From Argopecten irradians (taxonomy: Eukaryota > Mollusca > Bivalvia > Pectinida > Pectinidae), in contig NC_091142.1 of NCBI RefSeq assembly GCF_041381155.1, positions 8,551,340 through 8,615,339 of the forward strand: 64,000 bases of DNA, read 5' to 3'. The position numbers and the translations under genes are program-made. The notes beneath the pieces are model-generated. The model searched no databases and was not told where the DNA came from. It was given only the letters and a program-made list of their open reading frames with translations. The first letter of the stretch is position 1. Each line of letters opens with the position of its first letter. Positions 3,631 through 55,088 of this stretch are shown here, in pieces.

Positions 3631-3690
3631 ATCGATACTCAAATTCAAATCCTCGAAATTTTTGGAAAATAGTCCATAAAATTAACTGGA

Positions 3691-10831: not shown

Positions 10832-10898
10832 ATGTACGAAAAAACGTCAAATATGCCGGCCGTGGACGAACAAACTTTCATAGTAGTGCGATATGGTG
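10832..10898 (+). CDS. CXorf65: CXorf65-like exon 1 (coding part)
   Basis: It encodes M-Y-E-K-T..VVRYG. The donor G|gtacgt follows 10,898 in phase 1. The 5' UTR upstream has no in-frame extension that I favour. Confidence 0.8.
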
Positions 10899-13800
10899 GT
10901 ACGTATTTCTTTTTTTCATTAATATTTAATCATACGTATATGCAATTATAACAAATCATGCCTAGTAATAAAGCAGCAAGCAATATCTAAAATGTTTATT
11001 CATGTAGGGTGATAATTTTACAAATATTTTTCATCCATATGCTATTTATTTCAGATCATAGAGGAATTAATAAATGTAATATGACGGGACGTTTAACATG
11101 TATCAAACATGTGCTAAGTCAAAATAAGGAAGTTTCTCATTCATTAGTGTTTCTCTCTTTTTTACCGTTAAATGCATCGGCAGTGCTGCTTATATGAACA
11201 TAATCTTAGAAATTAATTTGATTGAAATCAGATTTTCAAAATGCTTACACTTAAAAGATCGGCTGTTAATCAGACAGTACGCAGGGACTTATAATTAATA
11301 GTGTCTATCCAACTAGGGTCTACGTGTAGGATCTGATAAAGGCCTACCTAGGGTCTGGCTACCGGGGGTACGTCTAGTCTAGGGTCTCCCTTGGACCTAC
11401 CTAGGATCTAGGGTCTAGCTACACTTGACCAAATACCAGAATGCTAACATTCATCTAATTAAATCATCAAGATATCCGATTTATTTGTATGATAAAGTCC
11501 TAGTACGTTGTTAGTTTTATAAACAGGAGTTGTTTATTGAAATCTGTAATAGTTATATCTATAAACAGGAGTTGTACATTGAAATCTGTAATAGTTATAA
11601 GTGTAAAGAGGGTTGTACATTTAAATCTGTAATATTTATAACTGTAAAGAGGGTTGTACAACGAAATCTGTAATAGTTATATCTATAAACAGGAGTTGTA
11701 CAACGAAATCTGTTATAGTTATAACTGTAAAGAGGGTTGTACATTTAAATATGTAATAGTTATAACTGTAAAGAGGGTTGTACATTTAAATCTGTAATAT
11801 TTATAACTGTAAAGAGGGTTGTACATTTAAATATGTAATAGTTATAACTGTAAAGAGGGTTGTACATTTAAATCTGTAATATTTATAACTGTAAAGAGGG
11901 TTGTACATTTAAATATGTAATAGTTATAACTGTAAACAGGGAGATTACAACGAAATCTGTAATAGTTATAACTGTAAACAGGAGTTGTACGTTGAAATCC
12001 GTAATAGTTATAACTATAAACAGGAGTTGTACGTTGAAATCCGTAATAGTTAGCGAGTGTATTTTGACGACAATGACTAGACCCGATGTTACCTTAGGTA
12101 TAAAGCTATTTGACTGGTATTGATCTGCCTACCTTAACAATCCCCTCTAACTTTTGATCAATAACGACTCGTAATCTAACACTACACTGTACGGCACCGG
12201 AATCATCAGAGCTCATCAATATCAAAACACTTTCACTCCATATTTTATTCTCCTGAGGTCCCTCCTACCGATAATGTTACTCCCATACAACTATCCTTAC
12301 AACACAAGAGTTTGACGTTCTGTCAATAACATAAAGCAAAATATGTTTATAAATAGCCATATACGTTAAATATCACCACAATGAGACGTTCTGTCAATAA
12401 CATAAAGCAAAATGTGTTTATAAATAGCCATATACGTTAAATATCACCACAATGAGACGTTCTGTCAATAACTTCTTGCAACACAACGTATAAATCCCAT
12501 ATATTATATAAAAACAGAGATTGCGAGGTTCTGCAAATAACATCAAGCATAACAACGAATAAATACCCCATATATTATATGAATACATGTTGTGACGTTC
12601 TGTCAATAATATATAGCATAAACATACATAAATACACCTAAGCATTGAGCATTGGGGGCGGTAGGATCAAAGAGTGTGAAATAACTACTATATACTACAG
12701 CTACCTGTTACTGGCTGTCATACCTACAGTAACGGCTATGTTAGTGGAAACATGTTTACATTGATTTTCTAACGAGAATAAAATATGAAATGTCAACACC
12801 AGAAACCGTAAACCTTGTCAATAACGCGATTGTTAACGGCTCTTAACACCTGTTATGGTATTTCTTTAAGATACCAATATCGAATCTTATACCGAGGGCA
12901 TATGGAGTGTATATAGTAGATTTATGGAAACCGACTGCCTTTGTGTAGATTTCTATTTGGGAAATGTGTTTTTCTTATAACTGTATTAACTTTATTTTAT
13001 CGCAGAGGCACTACCACATGTCAATAATAAAAATACCCTTTGTAGAAGACTAATATAAATCTATTTTTGACCAAGGTTACATAGAAATGGAAATATTCTT
13101 TAGAATAGGCCAGCTTCTCCGATCAAACGTGCATTGTAGGGTTTGTGTTATGGCATCCAATTTTATTTTTCAATAATATATGTACATAATTACAATCCTG
13201 TGAGTCCTGCTGTGTGCCAACCATAATGAAACTTGACATTTCACAATCTTATAGAAATTGTGCCAAAACATTACAATACAGTTCAATTTATAAATATTCA
13301 CCAGGCATTTAAAAATGGAGAGCTTCTTTAAACCCGTTGTATATATGCATCGCCTATACTTTGACCTTGAACAATACATGGAGGTAATTTGAAATCCGAG
13401 TCTGGCGTGACGAACATCGCAAAATTCAATAGCTACCTAATTATTTTTTTTTCAAAAAACATCTGAACGTAATGATGATGGTATATCTGTGTTGAATATT
13501 TTCAGTTTAGAAATGACTATTTGTGTAAAACAATATTTGTGTAGCAATATTTGTGTAAAACAATATCTGTGTAAAATTATACAAATTATATTATAAATAT
13601 TATCAACCACTTGTATTTAATTCCCCAAACACTCCATTACAATTCCAACACAACAATGAGGTATCTTAGATTGCCGGATGTCAGAATCACGATTAAGTAT
13701 GCTCCATTTATTCTGGTATTGAAGTTATGTATATTATTTAGTAATAGGAAATGGTGAATGCATATAACATTATCATTGTTTATCACATAACTATCCCGTC

Positions 13801-16800
13801 CAGCCATGTCATAGATATCTAAGTCACATGTGTATTAACACTAATATGACGTCTCAAGTAGTTTTGACGTCATAATCTATATATGACGTCGCATGATTGT
13901 AGGGGTTCTGCTGTTCTATATTTATAGAGACGAAATTGAAAATTTCGCTTATATTTTTATTAGTAAAAGTTATGTGATAAATATAACCTTACACTCGTGA
14001 CTATTTAATATGAAATTTATCAAACATGTTAAATAATTTGATATGCCACTTGCCTTATCAAATTGTTGAACTCGTTTGATAAATTCCATAGCCGCACATG
14101 TAAGATCCTATATTTTAATCAGCACACTTGTGCATATATATAGTTATTTACGTTTGCCAAGTTCAGGAATCTCGGCAGTATTGAAACATGATTAATTATA
14201 AACATCTTTGTTTATTACTAAAATCAGGTGTTGACGAACTTGTTAATTCCTTCCAATGTGCACGTTAAAATTCGCATGTGATTAATCTTTGTTGTCTTAT
14301 ATAATGATACATTTGTAAGATCTCGATGTAAGAAATCTGACTGTGTAATCTGATGTGATGGCATATTTTATTTACTAGAGTTACTTTCCTTTGTTTACAC
14401 TCCGTCTGCATATTACAGAGTTAGCTCCCTTGCGGGTAGGTATCCATTTTTTTTGAGCGCAATTCACGTCGTTTTCTCAGAAATGTATGACGTTACGCTC
14501 GCAAACACATGATGTCACAATCAATACCTACCCGCAAAGACAGATAACTCTGTATTATGCAAATACAGAATACGCCTTTTACTTGTTTGAATATTAAAGA
14601 TTTCTAGACGACAGATAAAATTTTGAAGAAGCGGTATAAGGCAGTCATTGACGATGGTGTATTGGGACAGTCAAAAAGTGTTTAAACATTTTACTCTAAA
14701 TGTTAAGGGTTTTTCATGATCTAATTCAATAAACACGGTACTTGTATTGGAAAAGTGATTGAACAGTTTTATCTAAATGTAAAGAGTTTTTTCATTATCT
14801 TATTCAATACACATGGTACGAACTAAGCAAATAAAACTTGTATTGAGTCCTACTCTCTTCCTTCTGATTGCAACCTTTTGTTTTTTTTCTGTAATTACAT
14901 GGTATTTTTTAGAAAACATGTCCCGACTTTAAAACTTTCTTCGTAAAAGATCATTTTTGCGGAAATTAAGACATTATGAAAAATAAACGATATCCCCATT
15001 TGTTGAGACACAAACATTTATACATAGAATTTCACAATAAAACATTATGCCATAATTAATGTTTCACTAAATCATCGATATGCAAGTGTTTATCAGGGTA
15101 TATTTGATAGCAATGTTTTATTTTATTGTGATAAATACAATTATTTAACTAACTATGAAACTGTACCGGAGCTAAATTTTGATCAGATAAATCTACTGAA
15201 TGTTACATAGAATCAAGAATTTTTTCTTATACTTACATCAATGTAACAGTTTGAATATTTTGAAACCAGTACATTCTGTTACGAATAACAACGGAAACTG
15301 AAAACTGATAGCGGTATAGGTAGATAGTCAGTGTTATGGTAGGCAGGTGTATTAAGTACACATAGGTATAGGTTCCATACAATAAATAACGGCAATCAGT
15401 ACATTTATATTAAACGTCCACAACTCGACGTTGAAGGATTCAAAACCTCACTCACAGACGATTGAAGTACTACAAAGAATCAGTACATAAGTGTATTATA
15501 AGCTTATCCTATAATCACTCAACGCGATGTGTCTGAGTACACAACCTCTGTTATATAGGTCTCCTCATAAATTATCAATAATACTAACGTAAATGCAATA
15601 TCTATAATTGCGAGTTATTTTATGTAGCAGTTGTACTTCCCTTCAAGTCTGACATTAGAATTTATCAATAAATATTTTTTTTACCAAAACGAAGATATCG
15701 TCAAATCAAAAACAAATTGTCAACAGCTTGAACAAAATATTATATTTTTAGTCTAAAGACACGTACGGTATTGTCGTTCGCATTCAATCATCCGTTTTGG
15801 TGATCATGAATTCAACAAGTTATCTATTTTAAGTTATTCCATCAACACACAATGACAAGCTATTAGAAAAACAACCGTGTGTAAATGATTTTATGATATA
15901 CTTATGAATAGCAATGGCCACGTATAGCATTTGTGGCGATAAAGTTTGTGTTTATCTGGATCCAAATAGTTTAGTTGTGTGCAGGCAAATAGATATGACT
16001 TTTAGTGTTTTTACGTACCGTTTTGATTTAAGATTGACTTCCATCAACTTTAATGTTTGGTTTGAGATTTTTGTGTTATAGAAGTATTACATAACTCTAT
16101 TTTTGTGTTATAGAAATATTACATAAATCTATTCTAAGTTAATCCTTATAATTCAATTAAAATAATTAAATTCTAAATTTTGTGTACTTAGAGTTGAATG
16201 CTACAATAAGCAGAATTAGTTGACATGCAAATACAATAAGCAGAATCGAGTTACAATACAATAAGCAGAATTAGAGTTGACATGCAAATACAATAAGCAG
16301 AATTAGAGTTTGACATGCAAATAAATAAGCAGATTAAGCAGAATAGAATTAGTTGACATGCAAATACAATAAGCAGAATTAGAGTTGACATGCAAATAAA
16401 TAAGCAGAATTAGAGTTGACATGCAAATAAATAAGCAGAATTAGAGTTGACATGCAAATACAATAAGCAGAATTAGAGTTGACATGCAAATACAATAAGC
16501 AGAATTAGAGTTGACATGCAAATACAATAAGCAGAATTAGAGTTGACATGCAAATACAATAAGCAGAATTAGAGTTGACATGCAATACATGACCCTTGGG
16601 TTAGAATATCCCTATCCTTCATATCTACATATGAAAGAGTTATATATTAGTAAACTTTATCCTTATTGATATTTTATCAGATGACGAGTCCGCCTTGTTT
16701 AATCCGTATTGTACGAGTCACACATTGACGGAATGGATCAGGAAAAAATGTCACTGTGAAGACGACAGTAAGTATAAAAACATCTATCTCACCTATTTCC

Positions 16801-19800
16801 GATTAATTTCAATATTCACAAACATATGTATTTGTTTTAGTACCAAAGTTATCTAGCAACTCGGTTAATATCTTAAGGGCCATGACCCCAGCTCTGACAA
16901 AAAGTTATAATACACATAATATTTACTTGTGTAAGATCATAACAAGAGACCCTAGTTTTTTACAGGTAAATATTGTGACCCTAGTTTTACAGGTAAATAT
17001 TGTGACCCTAGTTTTACAGGTAAATATTGTGACCCTAGTTTTACAGGTAAATATTGTGTCCCTAGTCTTGCAGGAAAATATTGTGACCCTAGTCTTACAG
17101 GTTAAATATTGTGACCCTAGTTTTACAGGTAAAATATTGTGACCCTAGTTTTACAGGTAAAATATTGTGACCCTAGTTTTACAGGTAAATATTGTGAACC
17201 TAGTTTTACAGGTAAATATTGTGACCCTAGTTTTACAGGTAAATATTATGAGCCTAGTTTTAAAGGTAAATATTGTGACCCTAGTTTTACAGGTAAATAT
17301 TATGACCCTAGTCTTACAGGTAAATATTGTTATTGTGACCCTAGTCTTACAGGTAAATATTGTTATTGTGACCCTAGTCTTACAGGTAAATATTGTGACC
17401 CTAGTTTTACAGGTAAATATCGTGACCCTAGTTTTACAGGTAAATATCGTGACCCTAGTTTTACAGGTAAATATTATGAGTCTAGTTTTACATGTAAATA
17501 TTGTGACCTTAGTCTTACAGGTAAATATTGTGACCCTAGTTTTACAGGTACACCTGTAAATATTGTGACCCTAGTTTTACAGGTAAACATTGTGACCATA
17601 GTTTTACAAATAAATATTGTGACCCTAGTTTTACAGGTAAATATTGTGACCCTAGTTTTACAGGTAAATATTGTGACCCTAGTTTTACAGGTAAATATTG
17701 TGACCCTAGTTTTACAGGTAAACATTGTGACCCTAGTTTTACAAATAATTAATGTCCCTAGTTTTACAGGTAAATATTTTGACCCTGGTTTTACAGGTAA
17801 ATATTGTGACCCTAGTTTTACAGGTAAATATTGTGACCCTAGTTTTACAGGTAAATATTGTGACCCTAGTTTTATTTACAGGTAAATATTGTGTAACTAT
17901 TCCTACATATAAATATTATGTATTACAATGTTTTTGTCAGAGGCGGAGGCCATAGCCTTAAAGGATCTTTCGCCTACAAATAAGTTCAATCTCATATTGT
18001 AGTGCTAATGCAATATATATTTTAATAAGTAGCTTTAACTTCTTTAAAAGCTAGTTACCATATATGTAACCCTGGTCATTACTAGCCGCAATATACCGCT
18101 CGGCTAGAGAGAACTTCTCTTTAGCTCGATCGGTTGAGCGTCAGACTAGTAATCCAGAGGTCCCGAGTTCGATCCCTGGCAGAGGCAGGTATTAAATGTA
18201 TTGTAAATTCTGCACCCTGTTACATATAAACGATATTTTATGATTAGTATGCAATCATTGCTAGCAATAATCAATGAAAATAAGAAGGTAATCCCCCTGA
18301 TGCCTCTGAAATGAGCTTGTATTCACTCTTCTCTCTAACCATACAAGTGTGCATCTTATAGCCTAGTGCAAATAGAAGCTTGCTAAATACACAGATACAG
18401 ATCAAAGGGTAACCAGGTTACCGTTCTCTTTTGACGAATCTTATTTAGCAGGGTCTTTTTTCAAGAGCATGCACTGCACACTAGGAAGGATAAATAAGAG
18501 CGGAGCTAGTACAGGCGTTCATTTCAGTGGCATCCGACATGCACTTTACATGTTCTATTTCTATATTTTTAAATATACCTTATTGTGAAAACTGAAGACT
18601 TCAACAAAACAAAGTGAAAGTAAATTTATGCTGTCAAAAGCATAATGGTTAATCACATGATACCTTGTATACTGTAAAACAACTTTCTTTCGCGTGCAAT
18701 TTACTTTTTGCAAATTTCGTGAATTTTATGATTGCGAATTAACATGAACATCGTTTAAATTGGTAGGAATTTCCACTAAATGTTTAAACCTGCAAATTTT
18801 AATCTTTGCGAACTTGTTTTGAAATGAAAATCGCGAATTTTATAAATTTCAATACTAGTATTCATTGTATTTATAATTCGTTGGAAATTATTGTTTTTGA
18901 CAGTTACAATTGACCTAGTTGACCTTGAAGGACAGGTTAAGAACCTCCCAACCCGACCTAAGGACTACGCCAGCGAAATGGTGACTGGCAGGGAGACATA
19001 CGTACTTATACGGGTCGAACGTAAGTAAATAAGGATTGAAGTATTGTTATTTTTTTCGTCGTACATGCATGTCATTTTTTTCGTCGTACATGCATGTCAC
19101 CTTAGTGGTATTAAATGGCTACCCATGCAATATAACTTCGCTCACCTTGTTTGTAATGCCAAAAAATGTTCTGAATACAGGTTCATTGTTCCTTTTCTGA
19201 AGGAATTTAGATATTTACGTAGTACCTCTAATTTTCCAATTGGGTTCCACTCATTCTGCTTCAGAGGGTCACAGCCAAAATTGATACAAATTCTGTTTCC
19301 CATCCGCATCCATGCAGAACTCTTTTGACTAGTAGCGATTGAAAGGATTAACCTCTATTTTCCCTATTGGGCCCCACCCCTCCTGCCCCCGGGGGTCAGA
19401 GCCAAAATGTATACAAAATTTGTTGCCCTTTCCCCAAGGAAGTTTGTGACCAAATTTGATTACAATACATCTAGAGCTCTATGACTAGTAGCGATTGAAA
19501 GGAAATGTTGACGGACGGACGACGAACACTGCGCCATGACATAAGCTTACCAGCTCTTCAGACCAAATGATCTAAAAACGTAATTTGCGTTAAAATAACA
19601 CGCAGTTTTCATATATATGGAGAATTGACTTGTAGTTGCGGTTTTCATCGATTTTATTTTTCAAAATGGCGGGATATCATATAATTGTAAAACTTTGATA
19701 AAACGTCGTGGTATGAGATAAAAAGAAAATGCTCTTGACATGTTGATATGAAGAATAGGGATATTCTACCTTCTGGGTCACAAAATGTTGTATCTTATGG

Positions 19801-25309: not shown

Positions 25310-25490
25310 TTATTTAGGCTCCCAGTTGTGGGGAGTGTCGTCAGCACGACCAATTGTACAATTTTAAGTCCCCACACTATCAGGACGCTACAAAATTTGA
25401 TGAAATTCCGACCAGTAGTTTGTGAGAAGCAGATGATTTTGTGAATTGTTGACGGACGCCACGGTATGTCATAAGCATATTATCATAACT
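25310..25490. repeat. dispersed molluscan-type SINE-like repeat
   Basis: It carries 'ttgtacaattttaagtcccc', 'gaaattccgaccagtagttt' and 'gttgacggacgcc..tatgtcataagc', related to the repeats at 4.9-5.1 and 19.2-19.56 kb. Confidence 0.65.
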
Positions 25491-25589
25491 TATAAAGTTA
25501 TTAAATAAAGTGTTTTTAAATATTGAATATCTCAACCAAGATATTTGCTAATCAAACTGCATGAAACAAAATGAACATTTTCCAACACA

Positions 25590-28195: not shown

Positions 28196-28628
28196 CAACA
28201 GACTGAGTGAATCTCATTAAATAGAACACAAAATAAATAGGAAAATAGTACAGGTACAAAGAAACAATCACATGATTAATCTCATTATCATGGAGTCGGG
28301 AAGGAAGACAAAACCTCGATCACATAAACAACAAGGACATGGACTGCATTACCATGTCAAAAGTTCAATTATTTGAGTGATATTCACAATACTGTAAATC
28401 AAATAAATCCCACGTGCAATTAAAATCTAATTTGAATTTGAGGACAAAAAGGATTAGTGAGTAGCAATTGCCATGGAATAGTTTCTGTAACTCGCAAAAG
28501 TGTGAAAATACATGGGTTTTCATTGTCACAAAGATGTTATCATACAACAATATATACAAGTATAATTTCAATTGTTATACCCTTCTTATTGATAAACTTA
28601 ATTAGAGGCACATATGTAAAGGTCATGT

Positions 28629-28820
28629 CTATATTTTCACATCAATAACGTTAGTCTCGGCTAAAATTGCGACAACCAGAAATATGCCGTAGAGCACTAT
28701 AAGTATAATTCCGTACGTACGAGACATCTTAAATTTGGACAGTGGCACTATTAGTAAGGAAGTTATGAGGCTCAGCATCAGGAACGCTGCCAACACGACC
28801 TCCTCAAAGGTTATCTCCAG
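28629..28820 (-). CDS. SLC8B1: SLC8B1 exon 16 (last), with TAG stop
   Basis: Acceptor gttctag|CTGGAG. It encodes the last two membrane helices ('LEITFEEVVLAAFLMLSLIT' to 'ETNVIDVKI') and ends at TAG (28,629-28,631). A damaged partial copy lies in intron 15. Confidence 0.92.
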   Translation of the reverse strand: MEITFEEVVLAAFLMLSLITSLLIVPLSKFKMSRTYGIILIVLYGIFLVVAILAETNVIDVKI

Positions 28821-43800: not shown

Positions 43801-44287
43801 AGAGGTTAAGATATCTGGACATATTGCCACCAACCCTCCACTTCTGGGTCGCGAGTTTAAATCCCAAGTGGCCCTGAAACAGTTGCCAGGTACTAACCAC
43901 TGGTCGGTGATTGACTCCGGGTACTCTGGATTTCATCCACCAACAAACCTGGCACGTCCTTACATGACACAATAAAACCAAATCTGGAGCACATGACGTT
44001 ATTTATAAAGATCTATGATATTGGGCTGTTTTGTTTAATTTGCTTACCTCCACGTCGTCGTCATCTCCTAACGACTGTGAGATGTTCGGTGTAGTGTCAC
44101 TCGTCCAGTGCAGTTTCCGAAGTACTGAGCCTGATGCAGGTCGCCTAGGGAAATATCGCACAACTTGAGGAGTAGAAAATGTCTCCTGGTAAAAATAATA
44201 GACCAGAAAAACGCCAGACAGAATTAAAAGTCCGATAAACTTTCTGCCTCCCCGATCAGTGTCCAGTTTACATGGCCTGGAGTCCAT
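28629..44287 (-). CDS. SLC8B1: mitochondrial sodium/lithium/calcium exchanger NCLX, 618 aa, 16 coding exons
   Basis: NCLX exchanges Ca2+ for Na+ or Li+ across the inner mitochondrial membrane. I traced 16 coding exons (1857 nt with stop), each with GT-AG borders and matching phases. Diagnostic segments are the Cys pattern 'CREVLNKKADERCDF' with 'YCDF' (exon 2), the alpha-1 repeat 'GVTFLAFGNGAPDIFSA' (exon 5), 'PFQAMQRPFLRDVIFY' (exon 6), 'NPIDIEKW' (exon 9), 'TVPVVDKEEDKHKWNR' (exon 10), the alpha-2 repeat 'LGLTLLAWGNSIGD' (exons 13-14) and 'ARQGYPRMGISACFGGPLFN' (exons 14-15). They align by eye with human NCLX (584 aa), including the Asn/Asp residues of both ion-binding repeats. The N-terminus has one hydrophobic segment (about residues 17-33). 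Introns hold many MITEs, two SINEs and arrays derived from its own splice junctions. Confidence 0.95.
28860..29040. other. intron 15 start, no feature
   Basis: Plain intron sequence between exon 16 and the 27-bp array. Confidence 0.5.
29040..29480 (-). repeat. 27-bp minisatellite resembling the exon 15 donor junction
   Basis: About 15 units. Read on the gene strand, each contains ggtgacaactatcag then gtaggttaccat. The true end of exon 15 is ggtgctgactatcag|gtaggttatat. Unit ends lose precision beyond about 29,040 and 29,450. In frame the unit reads 'NYQVGYHGD'. Confidence 0.9.
29540..29705 (-). pseudogene. partial duplicate of SLC8B1 exon 16 and its 3' flank
   Basis: It matches 28,545-28,706 in the same orientation at roughly 85-90% by eye: 'tgataaacttaat.agaggcacatatg', 'tctatattttcacatcaata', 'agtctcggctaaa', 'caaccagaaatatg', 'tagagcactataa'. 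It covers only the last ~75 coding nt plus 3' UTR and has an extra A in the 'ctaaaa' run that shifts the frame. It lies in intron 15 between exon 15 and the 27-bp array, so array and exon copy probably arose in connected events. Confidence 0.85.
29805..29869 (-). CDS. SLC8B1: SLC8B1 exon 15
   Basis: Acceptor aatcaccag|AT and donor CTATCAG|gtaggt. It encodes 'NLLLGIGIPFTVATIKNGAD' then 'YQ'. Confidence 0.9.
29927..30180. mobile_element. MITE with 'taaggccaaaaaaa' inverted ends
   Basis: The left end 'taaggccaaaaaaataatat' then 'gtctgtttt' and the right end 'aaacagacat' then a T-run then 'ggccta' are inverted repeats, with an inner 'taggtcgggagg' / 'gtcagtcggtaaaccc' area. It lies in SLC8B1 intron 14. 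Confidence 0.8.
30345..30425 (-). CDS. SLC8B1: SLC8B1 exon 14
   Basis: Acceptor gttaacag|AT and donor TTCA|gtatcc. It encodes 'DLIADTVMARQGYPRMGISA' and 'CFGGPLF'; the leading D completes alpha-2 'GNSIGD'. Confidence 0.92.
30595..30690 (-). repeat. three exact 32-bp tandem units spanning the exon 13 donor
   Basis: Units are 30,659-30,690 (true junction: the last 15 nt of exon 13 plus 17 nt of intron), 30,627-30,658 and 30,595-30,626. All are exactly 32 bp. In the two downstream copies the donor ggtaagt has become ggcgagt and gctgagt, so they are dead as donors. Confidence 0.92.
30676..30751 (-). CDS. SLC8B1: SLC8B1 exon 13
   Basis: Acceptor gatttcag|ACT and donor TTGGTG|gtaagt. It encodes 'TFGIVLNISNAILGLTLLAW' then 'GNSIG', the core of the alpha-2 repeat. 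Confidence 0.93.
30766..31672. repeat. 'gatgtatttat' satellite, nearly C-free on the plus strand
   Basis: About 900 bp of irregular tandem 'tatgatgtat' / 'gatgtattta' units lie in SLC8B1 intron 12, starting about 15 bp upstream of the exon 13 acceptor. The plus strand has almost no cytosine, so the transcribed pre-mRNA strand has almost no G. Confidence 0.9.
32153..32230 (-). CDS. SLC8B1: SLC8B1 exon 12
   Basis: Acceptor ttgtttag|GCA and donor CTTCAG|gtaaag. It encodes 'AFAYLGFLVACIWIYSVANE' then 'IVNILQ', a membrane helix. Confidence 0.92.
32275..32452. mobile_element. long-hairpin MITE 'gttaaggaattcctta', copy 1
   Basis: The left half ('ccagttttaccatcattcct', 'taggaattccttaac', 'atttcccatagtaaagtatt') and the right half ('aatgctttcccatgggaaat', 'gttaaggaattcctta', 'ggaatgttagtgaaactagg') are inverted copies over about 70 bp. 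A relative lies at 54,480-54,737. Confidence 0.85.
32793..32914 (-). CDS. SLC8B1: SLC8B1 exon 11
   Basis: Acceptor ggttgtag|TT and donor CACCCA|gtacgt. It encodes 'VGLDTIGGTFPVWALALIIG' and 'AALSALVFFTSKDDEQPKYH' then P. Confidence 0.9.
33214..33346 (-). CDS. SLC8B1: SLC8B1 exon 10
   Basis: Acceptor ctattacag|GCC (AG at 33,347-33,348) and donor CCAAGG|gtaggt. It encodes 'APIMFLLIITVPVVDKEEDK' and 'HKWNRYLNSLQCFTGLVFSS' then 'LATK'. Its acceptor is the first unit of a 27-bp array. Confidence 0.92.
33332..34735 (-). repeat. 27-bp minisatellite made of the SLC8B1 exon 10 acceptor junction
   Basis: About 50 units. On the gene strand the unit is gccctgatcatgttt (the start of exon 10, which reads GCCCCGATCATGTTT) plus gttctattacag (the intron end). 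Units nearest the exon are almost identical and in frame, reading 'ALIMFVLLQ' straight into 'APIMFLLI'. Farther units (33.75-34.7 kb) show a three-unit, 81-bp higher-order pattern (aacataattgggg / tgcatgatcgagg / aacaatatctggg types). Four of six reading frames stay open for 600 bp or more. Confidence 0.95.
34793..34950 (-). CDS. SLC8B1: SLC8B1 exon 9
   Basis: Acceptor tttttcag|AG and donor TTTAAG|gtaagt. It encodes the cytosolic-loop segment 'ERDPLLDDRINRSTEEEPTE' to 'EFLAAINPIDIEKWPDMK' and 'VYEVFK'. Confidence 0.9.
34925..35022 (-). repeat. two-copy duplication of the exon 9 acceptor region
   Basis: 'gtcaaggagaggatcacgct' (exon 9 start, 34,931-34,950) plus 'ctgaaaa' resembles 'atcaaggacaggataacgct' plus 'ttttaaa' at about 34,992-35,018. 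The copy has no AG acceptor in the matching place. It is diverged, so this is less certain than the other junction repeats. Confidence 0.6.
35488..36480. mobile_element. DNA transposon-like element with 'ttaaagggacaat' ends, long copy
   Basis: The left end 'ttaaagggacaatgcaatga' and the right end 'gactgaattgtcctttcaa' are inverted. It shares long blocks with 52,765-53,346 ('aagaaatattgacaaattcc', 'tcgttgatcaatacaattaa', 'acataaccactgaggagtt', 'cagtagttctagacaaaaat') but has ~370 bp extra (about 35,705-36,090), including a hairpin cgtacccggcc / ggccgggtacg. No transposase is present. It lies in SLC8B1 intron 8. Confidence 0.8.
36637..36714 (-). CDS. SLC8B1: SLC8B1 exon 8
   Basis: Acceptor gtatttcag|TA and donor AATCTG|gtaagt. 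It encodes the acidic loop 'KDGEVTVREENDDSYETLPG' then 'SNQKS', poorly conserved as expected for the central loop. Confidence 0.85.
37100..37240. repeat. ~70-bp tandem duplication in SLC8B1 intron 7
   Basis: 'ttacggtaattgattatctt' then 'gtattttcctgatacatt' recurs at 37,172 with few changes. Confidence 0.85.
37485..37575. mobile_element. 91-bp MITE 'ttaacttattcacccctg', copy 1
   Basis: Inverted ends are ttaacttattcacccct and aggggtgaatgagttaa. Relatives are at 50,702-50,790 and 56,339-56,453. Confidence 0.85.
37605..37688 (-). CDS. SLC8B1: SLC8B1 exon 7
   Basis: Acceptor ctattgtag|GC and donor GTTCCCT|gtaagt. It encodes 'GFILMYAGYVVVVVFGRYIY' then 'QKYKSFVP', a membrane helix. Confidence 0.92.
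37805..37977 (-). mobile_element. tRNA-derived SINE (Glu-TTC-like head)
   Basis: On the minus strand the head runs from 37,977: A-box 'gtggtgtagtggttaagccg', a loop with TTC in the anticodon position (ctttcac), and B box 'ggggttcgatcccc' at about 37,911-37,926. It is followed by a body with 'gggttttctccgggcactcc' and 'agtttcctcccaca'. The body motif is shared with the SINE at 43,784. It lies in SLC8B1 intron 6, on the same strand as the gene. Confidence 0.85.
38818..39008. mobile_element. MITE 'tattcgacccaataagcgccc', copy 1
   Basis: The left end tattcgacccaataagcgcc and the right end gggcgcttattgggttgaata are inverted over about 20 bp. A left-half relative is at 41,096-41,165. Confidence 0.85.
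39094..39261 (-). CDS. SLC8B1: SLC8B1 exon 6
   Basis: Acceptor catgtag|GA and donor CTATAG|gtgatg. It encodes 'GAGVFVTTIVAGSIAVICPF' and 'QAMQRPFLRDVIFYLAAAFW' and onward, matching NCLX helices after alpha-1. Confidence 0.93.
39360..39540. mobile_element. MITE family 'tgcatattacagagtta', copy 2
   Basis: The left arm 'gagttagctcccttgtgag' and the right arm 'gggcagataactctgtaata' then 'tgcaaatacagaata' define it. It lies in SLC8B1 intron 5. Confidence 0.8.
39946..40057 (-). CDS. SLC8B1: SLC8B1 exon 5
   Basis: Acceptor acaaag|GGT and donor TTGTTTG|gtaggt. It encodes the alpha-1 repeat 'GVTFLAFGNGAPDIFSA' and 'GDAGLAIGALF'. Confidence 0.93.
40309..40366 (-). CDS. SLC8B1: SLC8B1 exon 4
   Basis: Acceptor tgtttcag|T and donor GTTGCT|gtatcc. 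It encodes 'FCPALSVISETMHLSHNVA', matching NCLX just before alpha-1. Confidence 0.9.
40442..40893. mobile_element. MITE with 'taccgtatattccctattaa' inverted ends
   Basis: The left end 'taccgtatattccctattaa' then gagagcctc and the right end 'cactcttattagtgaaaa' then tacggta are inverted. Inner 'tgcccccc' / 'gcgcctcc' areas also pair loosely. It lies in SLC8B1 intron 3. Confidence 0.75.
41096..41165. mobile_element. partial copy of the 'tattcgacccaata' MITE
   Basis: It begins 'tattcgacccaataaact' and has 'ggggcgctta' within 60 bp, so it is an internally shortened relative of 38,818-39,008. Confidence 0.6.
41377..41429 (-). CDS. SLC8B1: SLC8B1 exon 3
   Basis: Acceptor aatttcag|TTT and donor GATTT|gtaagt. 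It encodes 'FLWWIFLFIGLAVTADD', the first exchanger-core helix. Confidence 0.9.
41562..41728. mobile_element. MITE family 'tgcatattacagagtta', copy 3
   Basis: The left end 'tgcatattacagagttatct' and the right end 'cagataactatgtaatatgc' are inverted, with inner 'gggtaggtat' / 'atatctacacgc'. Confidence 0.85.
41744..41951. mobile_element. MITE 'actttcttttgcgtgcaattta', copy 2
   Basis: Inverted ends 'aactttcttttgcgtg' and 'gtcgcgaaagaaagt'. Copy 1 is at 18,660. Confidence 0.8.
41978..42136 (-). CDS. SLC8B1: SLC8B1 exon 2
   Basis: Acceptor cctgtttcag|TGT and donor ATTCTG|gtgagt. It encodes 'CREVLNKKADERCDFVKQTD' and 'DCQIDEGFLDYTQFVYCDFG' and onward. The four-Cys pattern is diagnostic for NCLX. 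Confidence 0.94.
42460..42990. repeat. ~49-bp tandem repeat in SLC8B1 intron 1
   Basis: Repeats of 'ttgttagtccaatagtcttt' then 'aggtccaaagaccaataagt' are clearest at 42,660-42,900 and dissolve into 'ggtccaat' pieces at both ends. Confidence 0.85.
42991..43783. other. intron 1 interior, no feature seen
   Basis: AT-rich intron sequence; no exon or repeat is supported. Confidence 0.5.
43784..43990 (+). mobile_element. tRNA-derived SINE (Leu/Ser-type head), with A-rich tail
   Basis: A-box 'ggtggccgagaggttaag' of the type II tRNA kind and B box 'gcgagtttaaatccc' at about 43,852-43,866. Then a body with 'gggtactctggatttcatcc' and 'acgtccttacatgacac', and tail 'aataaaacc'. It is antisense to SLC8B1. 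Confidence 0.85.
44048..44287 (-). CDS. SLC8B1: SLC8B1 exon 1 (coding part)
   Basis: ATG at 44,285-44,287 in context gataaaATGG; donor GTGGAG|gtaagc. It encodes 80 residues with a basic start, the hydrophobic segment 'FIGLLILSGVFLVYYFY' and an acidic end, 'GDDDDVE'. The N-terminus is not conserved with vertebrates, so start choice rests on the single ATG before the hydrophobic stretch. Confidence 0.8.
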
Positions 44288-45552: not shown

Positions 45553-45678
45553 GATCAACAGCTATGAATAGGACAGTCAGGATGGACAGGCAATTTGAGA
45601 TGTGATTGTTGACATTTCTAAGAGACGAAGAACAAATCGAGAAACTTTATAGTTTGACATACCCATTAAAGTGTTGTC

Positions 45679-47806
45679 ATGCAGAATTTATCAAAATTGA
45701 GACAACTGACGAAGATCTGGACGCAAAGTTCACTTCCTCGCATACAATCAGTAGGGAGATGTTTAGATACAAAGCAAGCTGTGTATTACAGTGTGTCACA
45801 GGACAACACTCGAGCGAGTCTCGCAGAAACTGTATATCAACACCAGATCAGGGAACACCCCTGGCTTTATCCATATTCAAGAACTGTTGCATTCTCAAAA
45901 CAACAACATTTTGATATATTGGAAAAAATTGAACCCTGCAAGGAGAGTTTGCCTGACTTAGAATGTTTGGTTGAACACACAAAAGATTCTTTATGGCACT
46001 TGACAACAGATGAGGTGACTTCAGCCTTCCTGGATTTCACTCACATCGGCCTAACAAAATCACATCCTCTTATGACCAAGCTTTTTCTTAAGATACAGAG
46101 CGAATGGAAATCACTAGATTTTATTTCACTTGGACAATATTTATCTACGATAGTGAGCTACAATTGCAGCCACATTTTGATTGCAAATGAAATTCTTCCT
46201 CAACTTCGATACATTCTCAAGAATGACCTCGTGAAATTTGATGGAGATCCACAGCAGTTTATCCAAACACTGAGTCAGTTCACCCGCCAGGGTCTGTTAC
46301 AGCAGCTAGACGATGATGACTTAAATTATTTGTTGTCTCAAATATCCTCCGTCTGCTTTGAACAGGCAGCCATTATTGAGAATGACCTGGATCTGGTTAG
46401 GCCGTTGTTTGAGGTCCTGTCTCCATTAACACTAGGTGATGATCGACTGACCTTCATTGAATTCAAGGTCAAGGTCACATGCGAGAAGATTTTGAAACAA
46501 ATAACAGACATAATGTTAAAAAACATGGATCAATTGACTGTTCATCAGCTCTGTGCTATCATGGCTATGTCTGATGAAGAGCAAATGGAGATTTTGGCAA
46601 AATCATTTTTGGAAAGCATTCAATCTCGGACGGAACGTGTGTTAATGGAAACATCAAGCCTTTCATCATATGAAATCTTGGAGCTTCAGCAACTTGCTAA
46701 CCTTTCATGGATGAAACTTTCTAAAGAAAGTAGAGACCGTCTCCTAAACTTAACATTGGAATATTTAAAGGACAATAAAAAAGAAGAGTCAGTTCCTGTG
46801 GAAATGATTCTCTTCTTGAAACATTCAAATGCCTTATCGGATCTGCTTCTTGATAGCAAGTTTGTTTTAGCAAAGCAAGCTTTGAGACGGTCTGTTCTTG
46901 ATTTAGATATATTGCAAGATGTTAACTTAGATGTCTTTCAAGAAATATACGACATTGTATCTATGAGTATATTGCCAACTGATTCTAGAAGGAGCTTTTT
47001 ACACAAATGCAAATCAGAATTGTTGACAAACTCTTTCTTGTCTTCATCTGATAAATTGAGGCGTCTGCTAATTTTGGTTTTAGAAAAGGATATTAATCAA
47101 AACATCATACAGAAATTTATGAATGAAAAAATGATTAAACACAGCAGCCTCCATGATGTTAAGAAACTGATGGATTTTGCAACTCTTGGACTATTTGATA
47201 GATATCACTACAATTTTGTGAATAGCTTAAGTAATCTACTCTGCGCGGAAGGAAGGAAACAGTTACAGGCACAAAAAGACATGCGCCAGATTTTTCTCAT
47301 AGGCTCCGGTAACAGACATTCTAATACGTCTATAAAACTACATGGAATGCCAAGCTATCGACTGCAAAAACAGTTCCAAAATTTAAACAATCCAACTGGA
47401 GCTTTTGATAAAGATATTCTGAATACTTTGACGTTTTTGTGTCAGAGAGATCTGGACATTGAGGAGTTTGAGGTAGCATGTCTGATGGTTCGTCTGCTGC
47501 CGTGCACGGCTCTCCCACTCCTGTACCATGGGCTTCTGAATCGGGCCATTAGCAACCACACCAAAATGGCAGCACATCACTTCAGAGATGTTCTTCAGAT
47601 CCTTGTGAGGGTTGGGCGAGTCACTCCAAACACAGATATGTTTATTCAGACAACGTTAGACTTCCTCCACCGAGAGTCAGTCGACACCATAGATCCGTCA
47701 GTGTTGTTGGAGATTCTCAGCTGCCTGTCGCAGTTTAAGATGTATCCTCGCAGTATCCTCACCAAAGTGTTCGAGCCGTCTTTCCAACTCACAAAGAACA
47801 CACAAG
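45679..47806 (+). CDS. FASTKD gene exon with start codon
   Basis: 709 codons plus one base; donor CACAAG|gtattg. If the intron were retained, translation would add about ten residues and stop at 47,833-47,835. The exon's own acceptor is probably at 45,552 in the 5' UTR. Confidence 0.9.
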
Positions 47807-50800
47807 GTATTGCAAAGTACAGGGACCTAATATAGGATACTTATCAAAAAACTCAAACAAAGTAATCATACCGATGAATCAAAGAATGGCAGTGTGAAAG
47901 ATGTGCATGGAAGATAACTATATTAATATTTCATGTTTATGTAATTGATATAAAATAGATATATTGTTTGACAAAAAAAAAGAAAAATTATAAAAAAAAA
48001 AAAAAAAAAAAATTACTTAATTTTGCTTTTGGTGAATGCAAAATCAGTACTTCATTCCATGTAGGGAAAAATGCCATGGATTTGTTGGGGAAGCAATTAT
48101 TCATTTTTAATATTTTCATCTTGAAGTAAAATAAGAAGCTCAAATTTTTCAATGATGGTGTTAAGTAAGTAACTTTTGTAACTGAAGAAAAATATTAATT
48201 CGTCTGGTACTGTTTTTGATAGAGAAAAAAATACCATTCATGATCAATGGAGCATCTTAAACATGTATCTATAATGTACCAGAACCCAGGTGACAGTTCA
48301 AGCCCCTCTTGTTACAGATTTGTCGTACAATCAGTATGTGAAGCTGATGAGAAATGCTGCCAGGCTAAACCGAGCGGTGTGCCTCAAGTATCCAGAGTAT
48401 GGTGTGGTCAGTCATCCGGAACCAGTGGAATCGTACTTACAGCAACCAGGTAAAAAAAGGTCTGATGGACCTACTTAAACTGTTTAACAAAAGGTCCAAT
48501 AGGCCTACACAGCCATGTCAGTATTTCTTGCTTCAATTTTTGCCCTTAAATGATTTCTCATTAACAAAATTACTTATTTTTATGTATGATTTATATAAAG
48601 TAAACTTTAACAATGTATGATTATTATGAAAGTTCACATTTTTGTATGATTAAATTTAAGTTAGTTATAATAATTTTAACTATGAATGTACATGTACATG
48701 TATTATGATAACTAAAGTTTTACAATGATTATATAATATAATAATAACTATGTTTTCTAATTATTATATTTTCCTATTGTAAAAGTTGCTTTAATTTTTG
48801 TGTCGCCTGCTACGCAAAGGCGAAACTTAGGTATCACTATGTCGTCGGGGGGTCCGGGAAACGGTTTCCGTGCGATAATTTGAAGTATTTATTGTCCGAT
48901 TTCAACCAAATTTGGTATATATAGCTTTATATCAATGTGATCTCGGATGAGTTTGATAATGGTCAAAATCCTTCAATATTTGCAAGAGTTACAGGACATT
49001 AAAATCATCGAAACAGAAAAACCCATGGTTTCCGCTCGATAACTTAAATATTTATTGTCCAATTTCAACCAAATTTTGTAAAATGTTTGATATCAATGAG
49101 ATCTCGGATAAGTATAATAATGGTCAAAATCCGTCTATAATTGTAAGAGTTACGGGACTTTAAAATTGTCAAAACTAATAAATCCATGGTTTCCACTCGA
49201 TGACTTTAGTATTTATTGTCCGATTTCAACCAAATTTGGTATAATGAGATCTTAGATGGGTTCGATACTTTTCAAAATCCATCAATATTTGCAAGAGTTA
49301 TGGGACTTGATTACTTCAGCTAAATTACTGTGAAATCATTCATTTTCGTGGGGGTTTAATTTTCGTGGATTTCGTTTTTTGACCAAAATCAACGAATTTA
49401 CATCCCCACGAAAATATATAGTTGGAAAATATTGTTCAAACAAAGATAGTTTTCAGAATTTCATAGACTGCATCTACATGTACCAACAAATAATTGATTG
49501 AGTATATCATGACTCTATTAATGTGACATGATAATTGTTTGTTTGGACACATCTGCAAAAACACTGGCTACCGACTCTAGATTGTGATTGTAACTGTGTT
49601 GTGTGGTAGAGCTTAGTTCCGCTTGAGCGATCAAACAGTACAAGTGACAGTGTCGACTGTGTGTTTTAACGGTAATGTCTAAGGTCTTCTCCACGAATTT
49701 AAGTGCCAACGAAATTGTAAAAATTTTAGAATCCACGAAAATTGAGCCCAACGAAAATAAATGATTTCACAGTATTAACAATATTTTCAACTGTAAATAA
49801 CTATTTTTTGTGATGCTGTGCAGGCGACACATCCACTTCTGTAGAATTCTTGTATTAAAACTGTTTCAAACTTTTCAGTTTCTAAATCAGCTGTGGATTC
49901 TGACCAGCACCTGGTATTTATCTACCTGTATAAACAATGTCTACGGGATACTCTGGCCAAGGAGTTTGGAGGGACAGATTTTATATACCTCAATCACATC
50001 ACGCCTAAAGGTCTCCACACAGGTAAATTATGAAGTTTAGTAAGATAAAATTTCATATTATCTCAATCACCAAATCTGTATTTGCATTTTACAGAGTTAT
50101 GTGCCCTTGTAGGTAGGTAATGATCACGATGTCATGTTTGTGAGTGTAGTGAAAATGACTCAAAATCATTCACAAAATGATGATGTCGCAATGAATGCCT
50201 ACATGTACCTTCAAGGGACGCCACTCTGCAAATGCAAAGACAGAATAGTTGTTCTCTGGATATTAAACCATATTAAGCAGTTTCAGGTACTTTCTATATA
50301 TAAAGTGACACATCTTATCAAATTTTATCTTAGACTGATAGTAGCCGTCAGCCAATCCACATCAGTGTTACGGGCTTTCATATTTAGGATAGTTTTCTAT
50401 GTAATAAACTTTGAACAATATTTTTAACTGAAAGTAAATGTATACAGTAAGAACATGTTTATAACAAACACACTTACAAGAAATTTGTGGTTATAAGAAC
50501 AACCAAAGTGATTTTGTTGGTCCCCAGCAGTTCGTTATTTCCATATTTCACTGTTTTTCATTGTCTCTTGTTATGATGCCTCTTTTTAAATCTGTGTTTT
50601 TTTGCTGGGAACAGATGTGGCTGTGTATTTTGATGAAAACCTTGATGTTATGGAACATTCACCTGTAAACGGAAATCACTACAAAAAGTAAGTCTGATAC
50701 ATAACTCATTCACCCCTGAAATTTCATAATGGACTGGTCTGGTCTTTCATTTAGAAGAGTCTAAATGTAACTTTAGGGGTAATTAAGTTATTGCTCATGT

Positions 50801-52592
50801 TAAAGTTTACTGTGGTTCTTATGTTGTGGTACTATCTATCTATTGTTTAGTACTGCAAGGTACATAGATGTTTCCCAATAAACTTCAATTCATGCAGAAA
50901 TATTGAGATAGTGAAAATATTGATTACGGACAGGAGAAACAACAGGTAAAACACAGATGTACAAAATAAGATGATTTATCAAATGTGTTATACAGATATT
51001 GAAACTTGTATGTTCAATATTCCAAGGGTTACTATCACTGTCGTAATATCCACCCCTGGACTATATCATAGTAAAACTGACTAATCACACATGACCTCCA
51101 GAAACTTCTTTTGAAAATTACAGAGAGAAACGCCCAACTTAAAAGCATTAGTGTTCATCAAAGAACAAAACATGCTGTCTCATCTATTGTCGCACACAAA
51201 GCCTTCAGTTTTACTACGATATGATTCAGTGGGGAGGTTTAACAAAAGTGATAGTAACTCCTGAAGTATGGAGCCACACACAAACTGGAATGTTTACAAA
51301 CAGATTGTTGTAATCTATACACAGAAGCATGTCGTAGATGCATTAAATTATTGTTCATATAACTTTACTATTTCAGATTTGCTATTCTTTGCCTTGACAA
51401 AATGAATTTCCATCCAATTGCTGAAGGATTCACATTAGATGTTGAACACAGAAGAGAACTGCTTGAGGCAGAAGGATTCAACGTTGTCTTGGTGAGAAAG
51501 ATCTTTTATCAAAGTACTGATGGTACTGCTGTTCACATTAGATGTTGAACATAGAAAAGAACTGCTCGAGGCAGTTGTCTTGGTGAGAAAGATCTTATTA
51601 TCAAAGTACTGATGGCACTGCTGTTCACATTAGATGTTGAATATAGAAAAGAACTGCTTGAGGCATTTGGATCTTATTATCAAAGTACTGATGGTACTGC
51701 TGTGCTATCTGGCGTCCAAGGTTAACTTTACCATTAAATAACTTCTTTGTTGAAGGGGGAAGACTTGAGCCCTGAAATTGGCCCTATAACATTCTTTGAT
51801 GAAGGTCTACATGTACCAAGTTTGTTTGTTCAAATGAATGAACTTGACCTTCATTCAAGGTCACAGGAATCAAATAGGCTAAAATCTTTAAACAACATTA
51901 ATCAGGAGGTCTAAAGACCTGATGTTGGGCCTGAAACATGATGATGGGTTTGAGGACTTAAAAGTTATTCAAATGAATAGCCTTGTTTTCATGCTGACAT
52001 TACATGGGATCATAAACAGAAATTCTAATTGACTATCTTATGTCTTAGATATGCACTACCAGCGGGCAGTTGCGCAAATTGGACCCATTTACATTTTCAG
52101 TCCAATTAGTCAACAAGATGGCTGCCATCTTGGATTTCGATTGAAAGTTTGTTACTGCTATTTTTCAGAAAATACTGAAGGGATATTTCTCAAATTTCAT
52201 AAGTATGTTCCCATAGGGTCCTAGTTGTGCATATTGCATTTTAGGACCGATCAGTGAACAAGATAGCCGACAGGCCGCCATCTTGGATTTTGATATTTGA
52301 AGTTTGAAAAGTAGAGAAAAGATCTTTCAATTGTCAGACATAGATAAATCCTTGTATTGGTGGAGGCAAAAAATCCCTCTGGGATCTCATGTTATAACTG
52401 AACTTTATATGCTATCTTGAGTAGGACGATATAATTCAGCTATAGAAGATCAATTTTAAGGATATTGTGTTTTTCTTTCAGACTTCCTGTAAGATCAAAC
52501 ATAAACCCAGGTATCTGACAGTCATGGCCAACCAAGTGATGTCCGAAATTTGTAGCTCTCTTGGCAAGATTCCTCACGAAGTTCAACAGTAA
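45679..52592 (+). CDS. mitochondrial FAST kinase domain-containing protein, ~900 aa, six coding exons (FASTKD1-like)
   Basis: FASTK-family proteins act in the mitochondrial matrix in RNA processing and stability. Exons 45,679-47,806, 48,318-48,449, 49,879-50,022, 50,615-50,687, 51,377-51,491 and 52,482-52,592 total 2703 nt with matching phases. The N-terminus ('MQNLSKLRQLTKIWTQ..') is basic with few acids, as in a mitochondrial targeting peptide. A helical repeat region fills exon 1. The FAST_1-like part ends it ('LEILSCLSQFKMYPRSIL', 'VFEPSF') and FAST_2-like sequence follows ('LNRAVCLKYPEY'). The last three exons give a diverged RAP domain ('FAILCLDKMNF', 'HRRELLEAEGFNVVL'). About 900 aa best fits FASTKD1 (847 aa in human, from memory), but the paralogue is not proven. 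In-frame stops precede the ATG at 45,679. Confidence 0.87.
48000..48245. repeat. intron segment duplicated downstream of the gene
   Basis: It matches 55,575-55,840 ('ttgcttttg', 'catggattt', 'aatattttcat', 'tttttcaatgatggt', 'actgaagaaaaat'), at roughly 75-80% by eye. The source and boundaries are unknown. Confidence 0.7.
48318..48449 (+). CDS. FASTKD gene exon 3 (second coding)
   Basis: Acceptor ttgttacag|AT and donor CAACCAG|gtaaaa. It encodes 'DLSYNQYVKLMRNAARLNRA' and 'VCLKYPEYGVVSHPEPVESY' then 'LQQP'. Confidence 0.9.
48800..49830. mobile_element. ~1-kb element with 'gtgtcgcctgc' inverted ends, containing a nested MITE
   Basis: The ends gtgtcgcctgc (48,800) and gcaggcgacac (49,830) are inverted. 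The interior has about three tandem ~165-bp units ('atttattgtccgatttcaac', 'caaatttggta', 'gagatctcgga', 'gcaagagttacgggactt') over 48,860-49,310. It is interrupted by a second element at 49,326-49,774. Confidence 0.8.
49326..49774. mobile_element. MITE 'tactgtgaaatcattcattt' nested in the larger element
   Basis: The left end tactgtgaaatcattcattt and the right end aaataaatgatttcacagta are inverted, with inner 'cgtggggg..aattttcgtggatt' / 'aatccacgaaaattgagccc'. TA at both ends is consistent with a Tc1/mariner-type target site. Confidence 0.88.
49879..50022 (+). CDS. FASTKD gene third coding exon
   Basis: Acceptor cttttcag|TT and donor CACACAG|gtaaat. It encodes 'VSKSAVDSDQHLVFIYLYKQ' and 'CLRDTLAKEFGGTDFIYLNH' then 'ITPKGLHT'. 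Confidence 0.9.
50078..50250. mobile_element. MITE family 'tgcatattacagagtta', copy 4 (diverged)
   Basis: The left end 'tgcattttacagagttatgt' and the right end 'gccactctgcaaatgcaaag' are inverted and more diverged than the copies in SLC8B1. Confidence 0.7.
50615..50687 (+). CDS. FASTKD gene fourth coding exon
   Basis: Acceptor gggaacag|AT and donor AAAAA|gtaagt (phase 2). It encodes 'DVAVYFDENLDVMEHSPVNG' then 'NHYK', leading into the RAP domain. Confidence 0.85.
50702..50790. mobile_element. MITE 'ttaactcattcacccctg', copy 2
   Basis: It matches 37,485-37,575 closely, including 'gaaatttcataatggactgg' and 'ttagaagagtctaaatg'. Its right end is mutated (aggggtaattaagtta). Confidence 0.85.
51018..51275. 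mobile_element. fold-back MITE, third copy, in a FASTKD intron
   Basis: It starts 'ccaagggttactatcactgt' and ends 'aaaagtgatagtaactcctg'. Shared interior includes 'ctggactatatcatagtaaa' and 'cgcccaactt'. It belongs to the family at 9482-10,235. Confidence 0.8.
51377..51491 (+). CDS. FASTKD gene fifth coding exon (RAP domain, first part)
   Basis: Acceptor ctatttcag|AT and donor GTCTTG|gtgaga. It encodes 'KFAILCLDKMNFHPIAEGFT' and 'LDVEHRRELLEAEGFNVVL'. Its last 63 nt and donor are repeated twice more downstream. Confidence 0.88.
51429..51702 (+). repeat. three tandem copies of the RAP exon end and donor
   Basis: Units are 51,429-51,531 (103 bp, true junction), 51,532-51,623 (92 bp) and 51,624-51,702 (79 bp). 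Each begins ttcacattagatgttgaa and ends tactgatgg.actgctg. The second unit keeps the donor context gttgtcttg|gtgagaaag; the third has lost it. Confidence 0.93.
51790..51990. repeat. dispersed molluscan-type repeat, copy 2
   Basis: See 44,985-45,200; two partial units are present ('accaagtttgtttgttcaaa' and 'ggtctaaagacctgatgttg'). Confidence 0.7.
52020..52400. repeat. dispersed repeat with 'aagatggctgccatcttgg' palindromes
   Basis: Two tandem related units, each with 'gaacaagat.g.cg..gccatcttggatttt' (about 52,106-52,140 and 52,255-52,293), lie in the last intron of the FASTKD gene. Confidence 0.65.
52482..52592 (+). CDS. FASTKD gene last coding exon, TAA stop
   Basis: Acceptor tctttcag|ACT. 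It encodes 'TSCKIKHKPRYLTVMANQVM' and 'SEICSSLGKIPHEVQQ' before TAA at 52,590-52,592. The RAP-domain end is diverged. Confidence 0.85.
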   Translation, partial: TSCKIKHKPRYLTVMANQVMSEICSSLGKIPHEVQQ

Positions 52593-54857: not shown

Positions 54858-55088
54858 TCTGTATTTGTATATTATGGAGTTACTTCCCCTTATGGGTATG
54901 TATTGGCTTTTACACAATACTTTTTACTCAAAAAATCAGTGATGTCACCATCAATACCACCCTGCAAGGGAGATAATTCTGTAATATGGAGGGAGATAAC
55001 TCTGATATCACCATGAATACCTACCTGCAAGGGAGATAATTCTGTAATATGCAGGGAGATAACTCTATTATATGTAAATACAGAATAC
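54858..55088. mobile_element. MITE family 'tgcatattacagagtta', copy 5, with a duplicated right end
   Basis: The left end is 'attctgtatttgtatattat'. The right end, 'caagggagataattctgtaa' and 'gagggagataactctg', is present twice (about 54,962-55,005 and 55,026-55,068) before the terminal 'atgtaaatacagaata'. Confidence 0.8.

Follow-up and report, generated by a model that had tools for sequence, protein, structure and literature searches.

Tandem arrays sharing exon and intron sequence with splice junctions of their own introns in three genes of Argopecten irradians

Tandem arrays in three unrelated genes of the scallop Argopecten irradians share both exon and intron sequence with the junctions of the introns in which they lie. 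The genes were found in a window of 64,000 nucleotides (NC_091142.1, positions 8,551,340 to 8,615,339), which is the whole stretch of DNA analysed here; its GC content of about 35% suits a bivalve better than amphioxus. The pattern is real as anatomy and belongs to a kind already described, the so-called mirages. The arrays probably arose as short tandem duplications that straddled a junction in a minisatellite-rich genome, after which the usual turnover of repeats enlarged them on the intron side.

Gene models and junction-carrying arrays

Three genes were modelled from splice signals, reading frame and homology, and we take them to be, in order of position, CXorf65-like, SLC8B1 and FASTKD-like. 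The Il2rg-domain gene (10832-23210, + strand) has five coding exons (10832-10898, 16681-16767, 18904-19020, 21424-21495, and 23059-23210), and its product matches PF15874 over residues 21-106 (Pfam, E 7.1e-27); exon 5 lies outside this match, and its model draws only on splice signals and frame. The NCLX-like mitochondrial Na/Ca exchanger gene (28629-44287, − strand) has 16 exons, the choice of which was also guided by the human protein and then checked against the solved NCLX structure. This model matches Na_Ca_ex (Pfam, E 1.5e-53) and, over residues 79-617, NCLX in the PDB (phmmer, E 2.2e-141). Six exons were modelled for the FAST-domain gene (45554-52592, + strand), whose product matches FAST_2 (Pfam, E 1.2e-6) and has no relative in the PDB at 0.001. 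Taken together, the models comprise 27 exons, 24 introns and 48 junctions, with GT-AG borders throughout; an intron in the 5′ untranslated region of the FAST gene was excluded from the intron count. An earlier note on this DNA gave roughly 27 introns. Rfam, at gathering scores, and ARAGORN gave no matches in the window.

Five arrays have units that carry a junction of their own intron, two of them an acceptor (units of 60 and 27 bp) and three a donor (units of 32, 27, and about 92 bp). The acceptor at 23059 of exon 5 of the Il2rg-domain gene is included in an array of about 15 copies of a 60-bp unit (22210-23092, + strand), which joins the last 26 nt of the intron to the first 34 nt of exon 5 and lacks the AG in one copy. 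The acceptor of NCLX exon 10 (33346) belongs to an array of 54 aligned 27-bp units (33332-34772, − strand; the TRF boundary is at 34719 rather than 34772), each formed by the last 12 nt of the intron and the first 15 nt of exon 10. This array occupies intron 9 up to 20 nt from its donor and retains the AG in 53 of the 54 units, one unit near the donor being badly degenerate, and the exon 10 copy differs at a single base from the type of unit that surrounds it.

The donors are represented by smaller arrays. Three copies of a 32-bp unit (30593-30691, − strand), made up of 16 nt of the end of NCLX exon 13 (exon end 30676) and 16 nt of intron, were found at this donor, and GT is lost in both intronic copies and retained only in the exon copy. 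In the FAST gene, a unit of about 92 bp that crosses the border from exon 5 into intron 5 (donor after 51491, + strand) is present as the exon copy and two intronic copies, the first of which carries a 12-nt deletion and keeps the donor, whereas the second has none; the array extends over 51429-51702 by eye and 51483-51669 in TRF. Finally, NCLX intron 15 contains a donor-like array (28990-29480 including degenerate flanking copies, core 29112-29469, − strand) of a 27-bp unit with CAG|GTAGGT, which matches the exon 15 donor (exon end 29805) over 25-28 nt. It lies about 335 nt from that donor, and the space between them holds a copy of part of exon 16 together with the flank downstream of this exon (29538-29713). 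In the other four arrays, the authentic junction sits at the edge of the array. The modelled exons at the arrays remain open and intact.

Homology of the arrays to their own junctions

For each of the 48 junctions, a 40-nt segment (20-nt flanks) was compared by alignment with the intron to which the junction belongs and with the remaining 23 introns. The score in the own intron was 40 for the exon 5 acceptor of the Il2rg-domain gene (10 for the best match elsewhere), 32.5 for the NCLX exon 10 acceptor (11), 26.5 for the FAST exon 5 donor (12), 22.5 for the NCLX exon 13 donor (11.5), and 18 for the NCLX exon 15 donor (11.5), so that these five junctions lead by at least 6.5 points. With 100-nt segments, z was 5.3 for NCLX intron 15, and the best alignment for intron 13 was intronic only, the target in this case omitting the first 50 nt of the intron.

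In total, 8 of the 48 junctions scored higher in their own intron than their maximum over the other introns, where roughly 2 were expected. The sixth is the NCLX exon 12 acceptor (17.0 versus 11.5; z 12.3 with 100-nt segments), the region of which has a duplicate at 32436-32508 (− strand) with an AG 228 nt upstream of the real one. This duplicate is old and non-tandem. A weak case had been announced beside five clear ones and left unspecified; a sixth junction does stand out, but not as a tandem array. The two others, the acceptors of NCLX introns 2 (12.5 versus 11.5) and 6 (11.5 versus 11.0), showed a marginal excess that does not cover the junction. Three more candidates were rejected. The donors of NCLX intron 9 and of intron 1 of the Il2rg-domain gene appeared duplicated across the junction with 100-nt segments (z 7.7 and 4.9, respectively), but with 20-nt flanks they scored 7.5 versus 11.5 and 10.0 versus 13.5. 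The NCLX exon 9 acceptor reached 14.5, versus 15.5 from other introns, and was absent from the best 14 of the 48 rows with 100-nt segments.

In parallel, 33 arrays were paired with the 48 junctions on both strands. Scores of at least 18 were obtained for 5 of the 40 pairs from the same intron and for none of the 1544 other pairs, the maximum of which was 15.0, with six between 12.5 and 15.0. In three of the five high-scoring pairs, the trimmed array overlaps the junction segment by 3-19 nt, but the alignments of 40-nt segments, from the targets of which that stretch was removed, gave the same five junctions. A comparison with shuffled intron-array pairs had been proposed by the earlier note for the whole genome; carried out at the scale of the window, it supports homology and upholds the five clear cases, as well as the involvement of donors and acceptors on both strands in three unrelated genes.

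Introner-like mobile introns place the same sequence in many introns. Unlike these, the six units found their best matches outside their own arrays, within the window, at scores of only 11.0-15.5, or 17.5 for the intron 15 unit; the value of 15.5 belongs to the 91-nt FASTKD unit and stands without a shuffle control at that length. The 17.5 obtained for the intron 15 unit exceeds the scores of 30 shuffled versions of this unit against the window (mean 12.2, maximum 14.5). This match falls at 1085-1125 in an intergenic array (969-1350), and the unit scores the same 17.5 against the exon 15 donor region. In addition, the alignment to the solved NCLX is poor at the end of exon 15, and a one-residue gap lies nearby. 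In intron 15, the donor may have come from a dispersed minisatellite, and not the array from the donor, although the exon 15 junction itself scores below 12.5 against the intergenic array. As an account of the arrays in general, this order of events, in which minisatellites with splice-like cores were there first, provided or shifted the splice site and lent the exon its end, seems very unlikely to us: the exon 10 and exon 13 borders fall in well-aligned NCLX sequence, and outside the arrays neither of the two units scores above 11.5 anywhere in the window.

Origin of the arrays and choice of splice sites

It had been argued that chance placement of minisatellites would not reproduce the adjacent junction. 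This is incorrect: a tandem duplication copies the junction whenever it overlaps one. In the mirage explanation that we prefer, a short tandem duplication would happen to straddle an exon-intron border, and the exon could stay intact. The spliceosome would continue to use the exon-proximal copy, so that the extra copies would be spliced out and the change would be nearly neutral, and the array could then expand into the intron by unequal exchange or slippage, as other minisatellites do. Because a duplication across a junction need not damage the exon, the arrays call for no special mechanism of breakage, and the earlier demand for one was an over-reading. Duplications that contain exon sequence are expected to survive mainly across junctions, since there they add only intron, whereas inside an exon they alter the protein. 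In agreement with splicing at the authentic junctions, the NCLX protein deduced from the exon-proximal sites aligns without gaps to the solved NCLX at the exon 9/10 and 13/14 joins; single-residue gaps are found near the 15/16 join.

Arrays occupy about 25% of intron bases, and some overlaps with junctions are therefore expected. A duplicate in the same intron (score of at least 16) was found for 26.4% of 5797 interior intron segments (20.7% with introns weighted equally), and only for 6 of the 48 junction segments (12.5%), which is below the interior rate. A different picture was obtained when each array was counted once and its unit was placed uniformly along the intron: a junction is carried by 5 of 20 arrays, or of 19 under the strictest setting, versus 0.95-2.04 expected (P 0.001-0.03), in a window picked for this pattern. 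The expectation was 1.49-2.04 with array-free intron (P 0.009-0.03) and 0.95-1.23 with the present intron lengths (P 0.001-0.004), and without any one of the cases P rose to 0.036-0.076. The input consisted of 21 merged intronic TRF arrays, from which a poly-A row was dropped by unit length, and one more at the 8-nt setting; two arrays were extended past the ends of their TRF rows (16198 for 16255, and 34772 for 34719).

This count exceeds the prediction of neutral scatter, and to that extent it speaks against the mirage model, although the window was selected. It would be explained if junctions were preferred seeds, that is, if a process tied to splicing or transcription, such as R-loops, paused polymerase or border nicking, duplicated DNA there more often, and the presence of both donors and acceptors in three genes points in the same direction. 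However, the excess is only suggestive, because the window was reported for its junction pattern; the choice was made post hoc, the case of intron 15 is ambiguous, and the better survival of junction-crossing duplications could by itself inflate the count. Together with the lower coverage at junctions, these points make a preference for junctions quite unlikely in our judgement.

The mirage model also leaves unexplained why the exon-proximal site wins. Scored with splice-site matrices derived from the other introns, the intron with the 60-bp array has 14 acceptors within 3 bits of the real site and the intron with the 27-bp array has 46. Both numbers count the real site, which leaves 13 and 45 rival acceptors, respectively. 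For the donors, 12 sites beside the real one pass the matrix in intron 15, and the real donor alone passes in intron 13. Upstream of exon 5 of the Il2rg-domain gene, a frame of 820 nt is open and contains the real acceptor among 13 in-frame YAG acceptors, with scores of 11.6-12.8, the real site scoring 12.8. Splicing to another of these acceptors would thus lengthen the protein by 20-residue repeats and keep the frame. The open frame before NCLX exon 10 extends over 189 nt and contains 8 such acceptors, one of them the real site.

The ladder before exon 5 is the most plausible place for selection to have maintained an array as a set of alternative splice sites that yields proteins of variable length. 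Even so, a 60-nt unit that is open in the frame of the exon would not be improbable by chance, only 12 of the 47 TTAYAG sites of NCLX intron 9 are in frame, and read-through of the donors meets stop codons after 5, 54, and 135 nt. We consider it extremely improbable that the arrays represent such selected sets. A broader proposal holds that junctions are a hot spot throughout the lineage, with border-derived arrays in about a fifth of introns, with introns such as NCLX intron 9 consisting almost wholly of 3′ splice-site repeats, and with some arrays acting as in-frame acceptor ladders that vary protein length with copy number; this proposal appears unlikely.

The copies of the 54-unit array also bear on how it may have grown. 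Their exon-derived half becomes less exon-like with distance from the exon (Spearman −0.57, P 8e-6), and the intronic half has no trend with distance (P 0.71). The gradient fits growth of the array outward from the exon, or alternatively it could result from local homogenisation. Between copies, the splice-site half of the 27-bp unit varies less than the exon half (uniformity of 0.962 versus 0.830). Selection preserving splice sites in the intronic copies was considered and rejected, as rare substitutions number 6 in the splice-site half and 10 in the exon half (P 0.62) and variant kinds 9 and 20 (P 0.10). The greater uniformity is put down to subfamily structure, with no clear sign of selection. 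The suggestion that only copies with a usable splice site are tolerated is hardly borne out by these counts, or by the 32-bp array with its intronic copies devoid of GT.

A further 27-bp array, at 16948-17893 (+ strand), carries the juxtaposed acceptor-donor motif TTTTACAG|GTAAATA, and 27 of its sites pass both matrices at 3 bits. Its scores against the junctions of its own intron are below 12.5. A reading as recursive-splicing (ratchet) sites was rejected, as there is no match to an own junction and an intergenic array at 59-64 kb also gives 17 AG|GT sites. On the + strand of the whole window, 57 such juxtaposed sites pass both matrices.

Comparison with known systems

The arrays described here are probably mirages in a phylum other than that of amphioxus. 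If mirages are common outside amphioxus, they would offer a general route for the lengthening of introns and for the supply of spare splice sites. They would also provide natural tests of splice-site choice, with dozens of almost identical acceptors in competition within a single intron, and they bear on intron gain by duplication. Should junctions prove to be preferred seeds across the genome, this would point to DNA breakage linked to splicing or transcription. Junction-carrying arrays may be unusually frequent here, and the new aspects may be the host group and the density.

Among the matches listed from the open-licence literature, no junction arrays in molluscs were noticed in titles and abstract openings. 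The portions available of a report on gastropod haemocyanin introns (PMC7931591) and of one on C. elegans minisatellites (PMC4039745) hold nothing on junction-spanning repeats. In humans, internal tandem repeats have units averaging 30 bp, and some lie at exon-intron boundaries and can alter splicing (PMC2812944). As far as the accessible text of that study goes, they are differences between recent paralogues in segmental duplications and mostly supported by RNA, whereas the present arrays are known from one sequence. According to the excerpts at hand, intron gain has been described from a duplication across an intron-exon boundary in potato (PMC4974935) and from duplication of a proto-splice site in Drosophila (PMC2891723), both of which supply ready splice signals. 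In contrast to these cases, no new intron is evident here, and the copies sit in introns.

The closest counterpart is a named one, despite the statement of the earlier note that no named system describes such arrays. The sections available of two papers (PMC3087553, PMC3902484) describe the mirages of amphioxus as minisatellite-like tandem duplications across the exon-intron border, at its 5′ or 3′ side, with units of about 10-160 bp in which AG or GT is kept in many, but not all, copies. They are known there from Adh3, the globins BflGb6 and BflGb9, and PGBD5, the last case being added by PMC3902484, which also cites troponin C, and the Adh3 and globin data suggested regular splicing. Judged by these sections, the scallop arrays agree with the amphioxus mirages in that the unit spans a border of the same gene, that both 5′ and 3′ borders are involved, and that many copies, though not all, retain the splice dinucleotide. 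They differ in that five are found in 24 introns of three adjacent genes, with up to 54 copies, and in that one intron, NCLX intron 9, is almost wholly made of units.

Dispersed repeats and intergenic sequences

The core TGACAAC(C/T)ATCAGG is common to minisatellites located at 969-1350 (intergenic), 1595-1690, and 29112-29469 (the donor-like 27-bp array in intron 15 of the NCLX/SLC8B1-like gene, NCLX), some 28 kb apart, and thus, judging from their sequences, these arrays may belong to one repeat family dispersed in the genome. Inspection by eye also showed about five copies in the window of a short dispersed element (about 14400-14580, 39350-39540, 41560-41740, 50080-50250, and 54860-55090), the copies ending roughly with AGATAACTCTGTAATATGCAAATACAGAAT.

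Two long arrays were intergenic, one with a 15-bp unit (25592-28191, 2.6 kb) and one with a 45-bp unit that runs to the window end (58883-63996). Two open stretches of 217 codons each, in an identical frame (2977-3630 and 3673-4326), had no match in Pfam at a threshold of 0.1, and are perhaps a single, interrupted mobile-element gene.

Splice signals and exon duplication in NCLX

Weak splice signals were found in both intron 4 (40058-40308) and intron 14 (29870-30344) of NCLX, which have the donor GTATCCTTT in common (donor scores of 3.0 and 2.4, and acceptor scores of −4.0 and 2.2, respectively). Intron 15 contains a partial duplicate (29538-29713), in direct orientation, of exon 16 and its downstream flank (28535-28706).

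Juxtaposed splice motifs in the Il2rg-domain gene

Intron 2 of the Il2rg-domain gene contains a 27-bp array (16948-17893) with 27 juxtaposed acceptor-donor motifs, TTTTACAG being directly followed by GTAAATA. In their sequence, these motifs appear to resemble recursive-splicing ratchet points in series.
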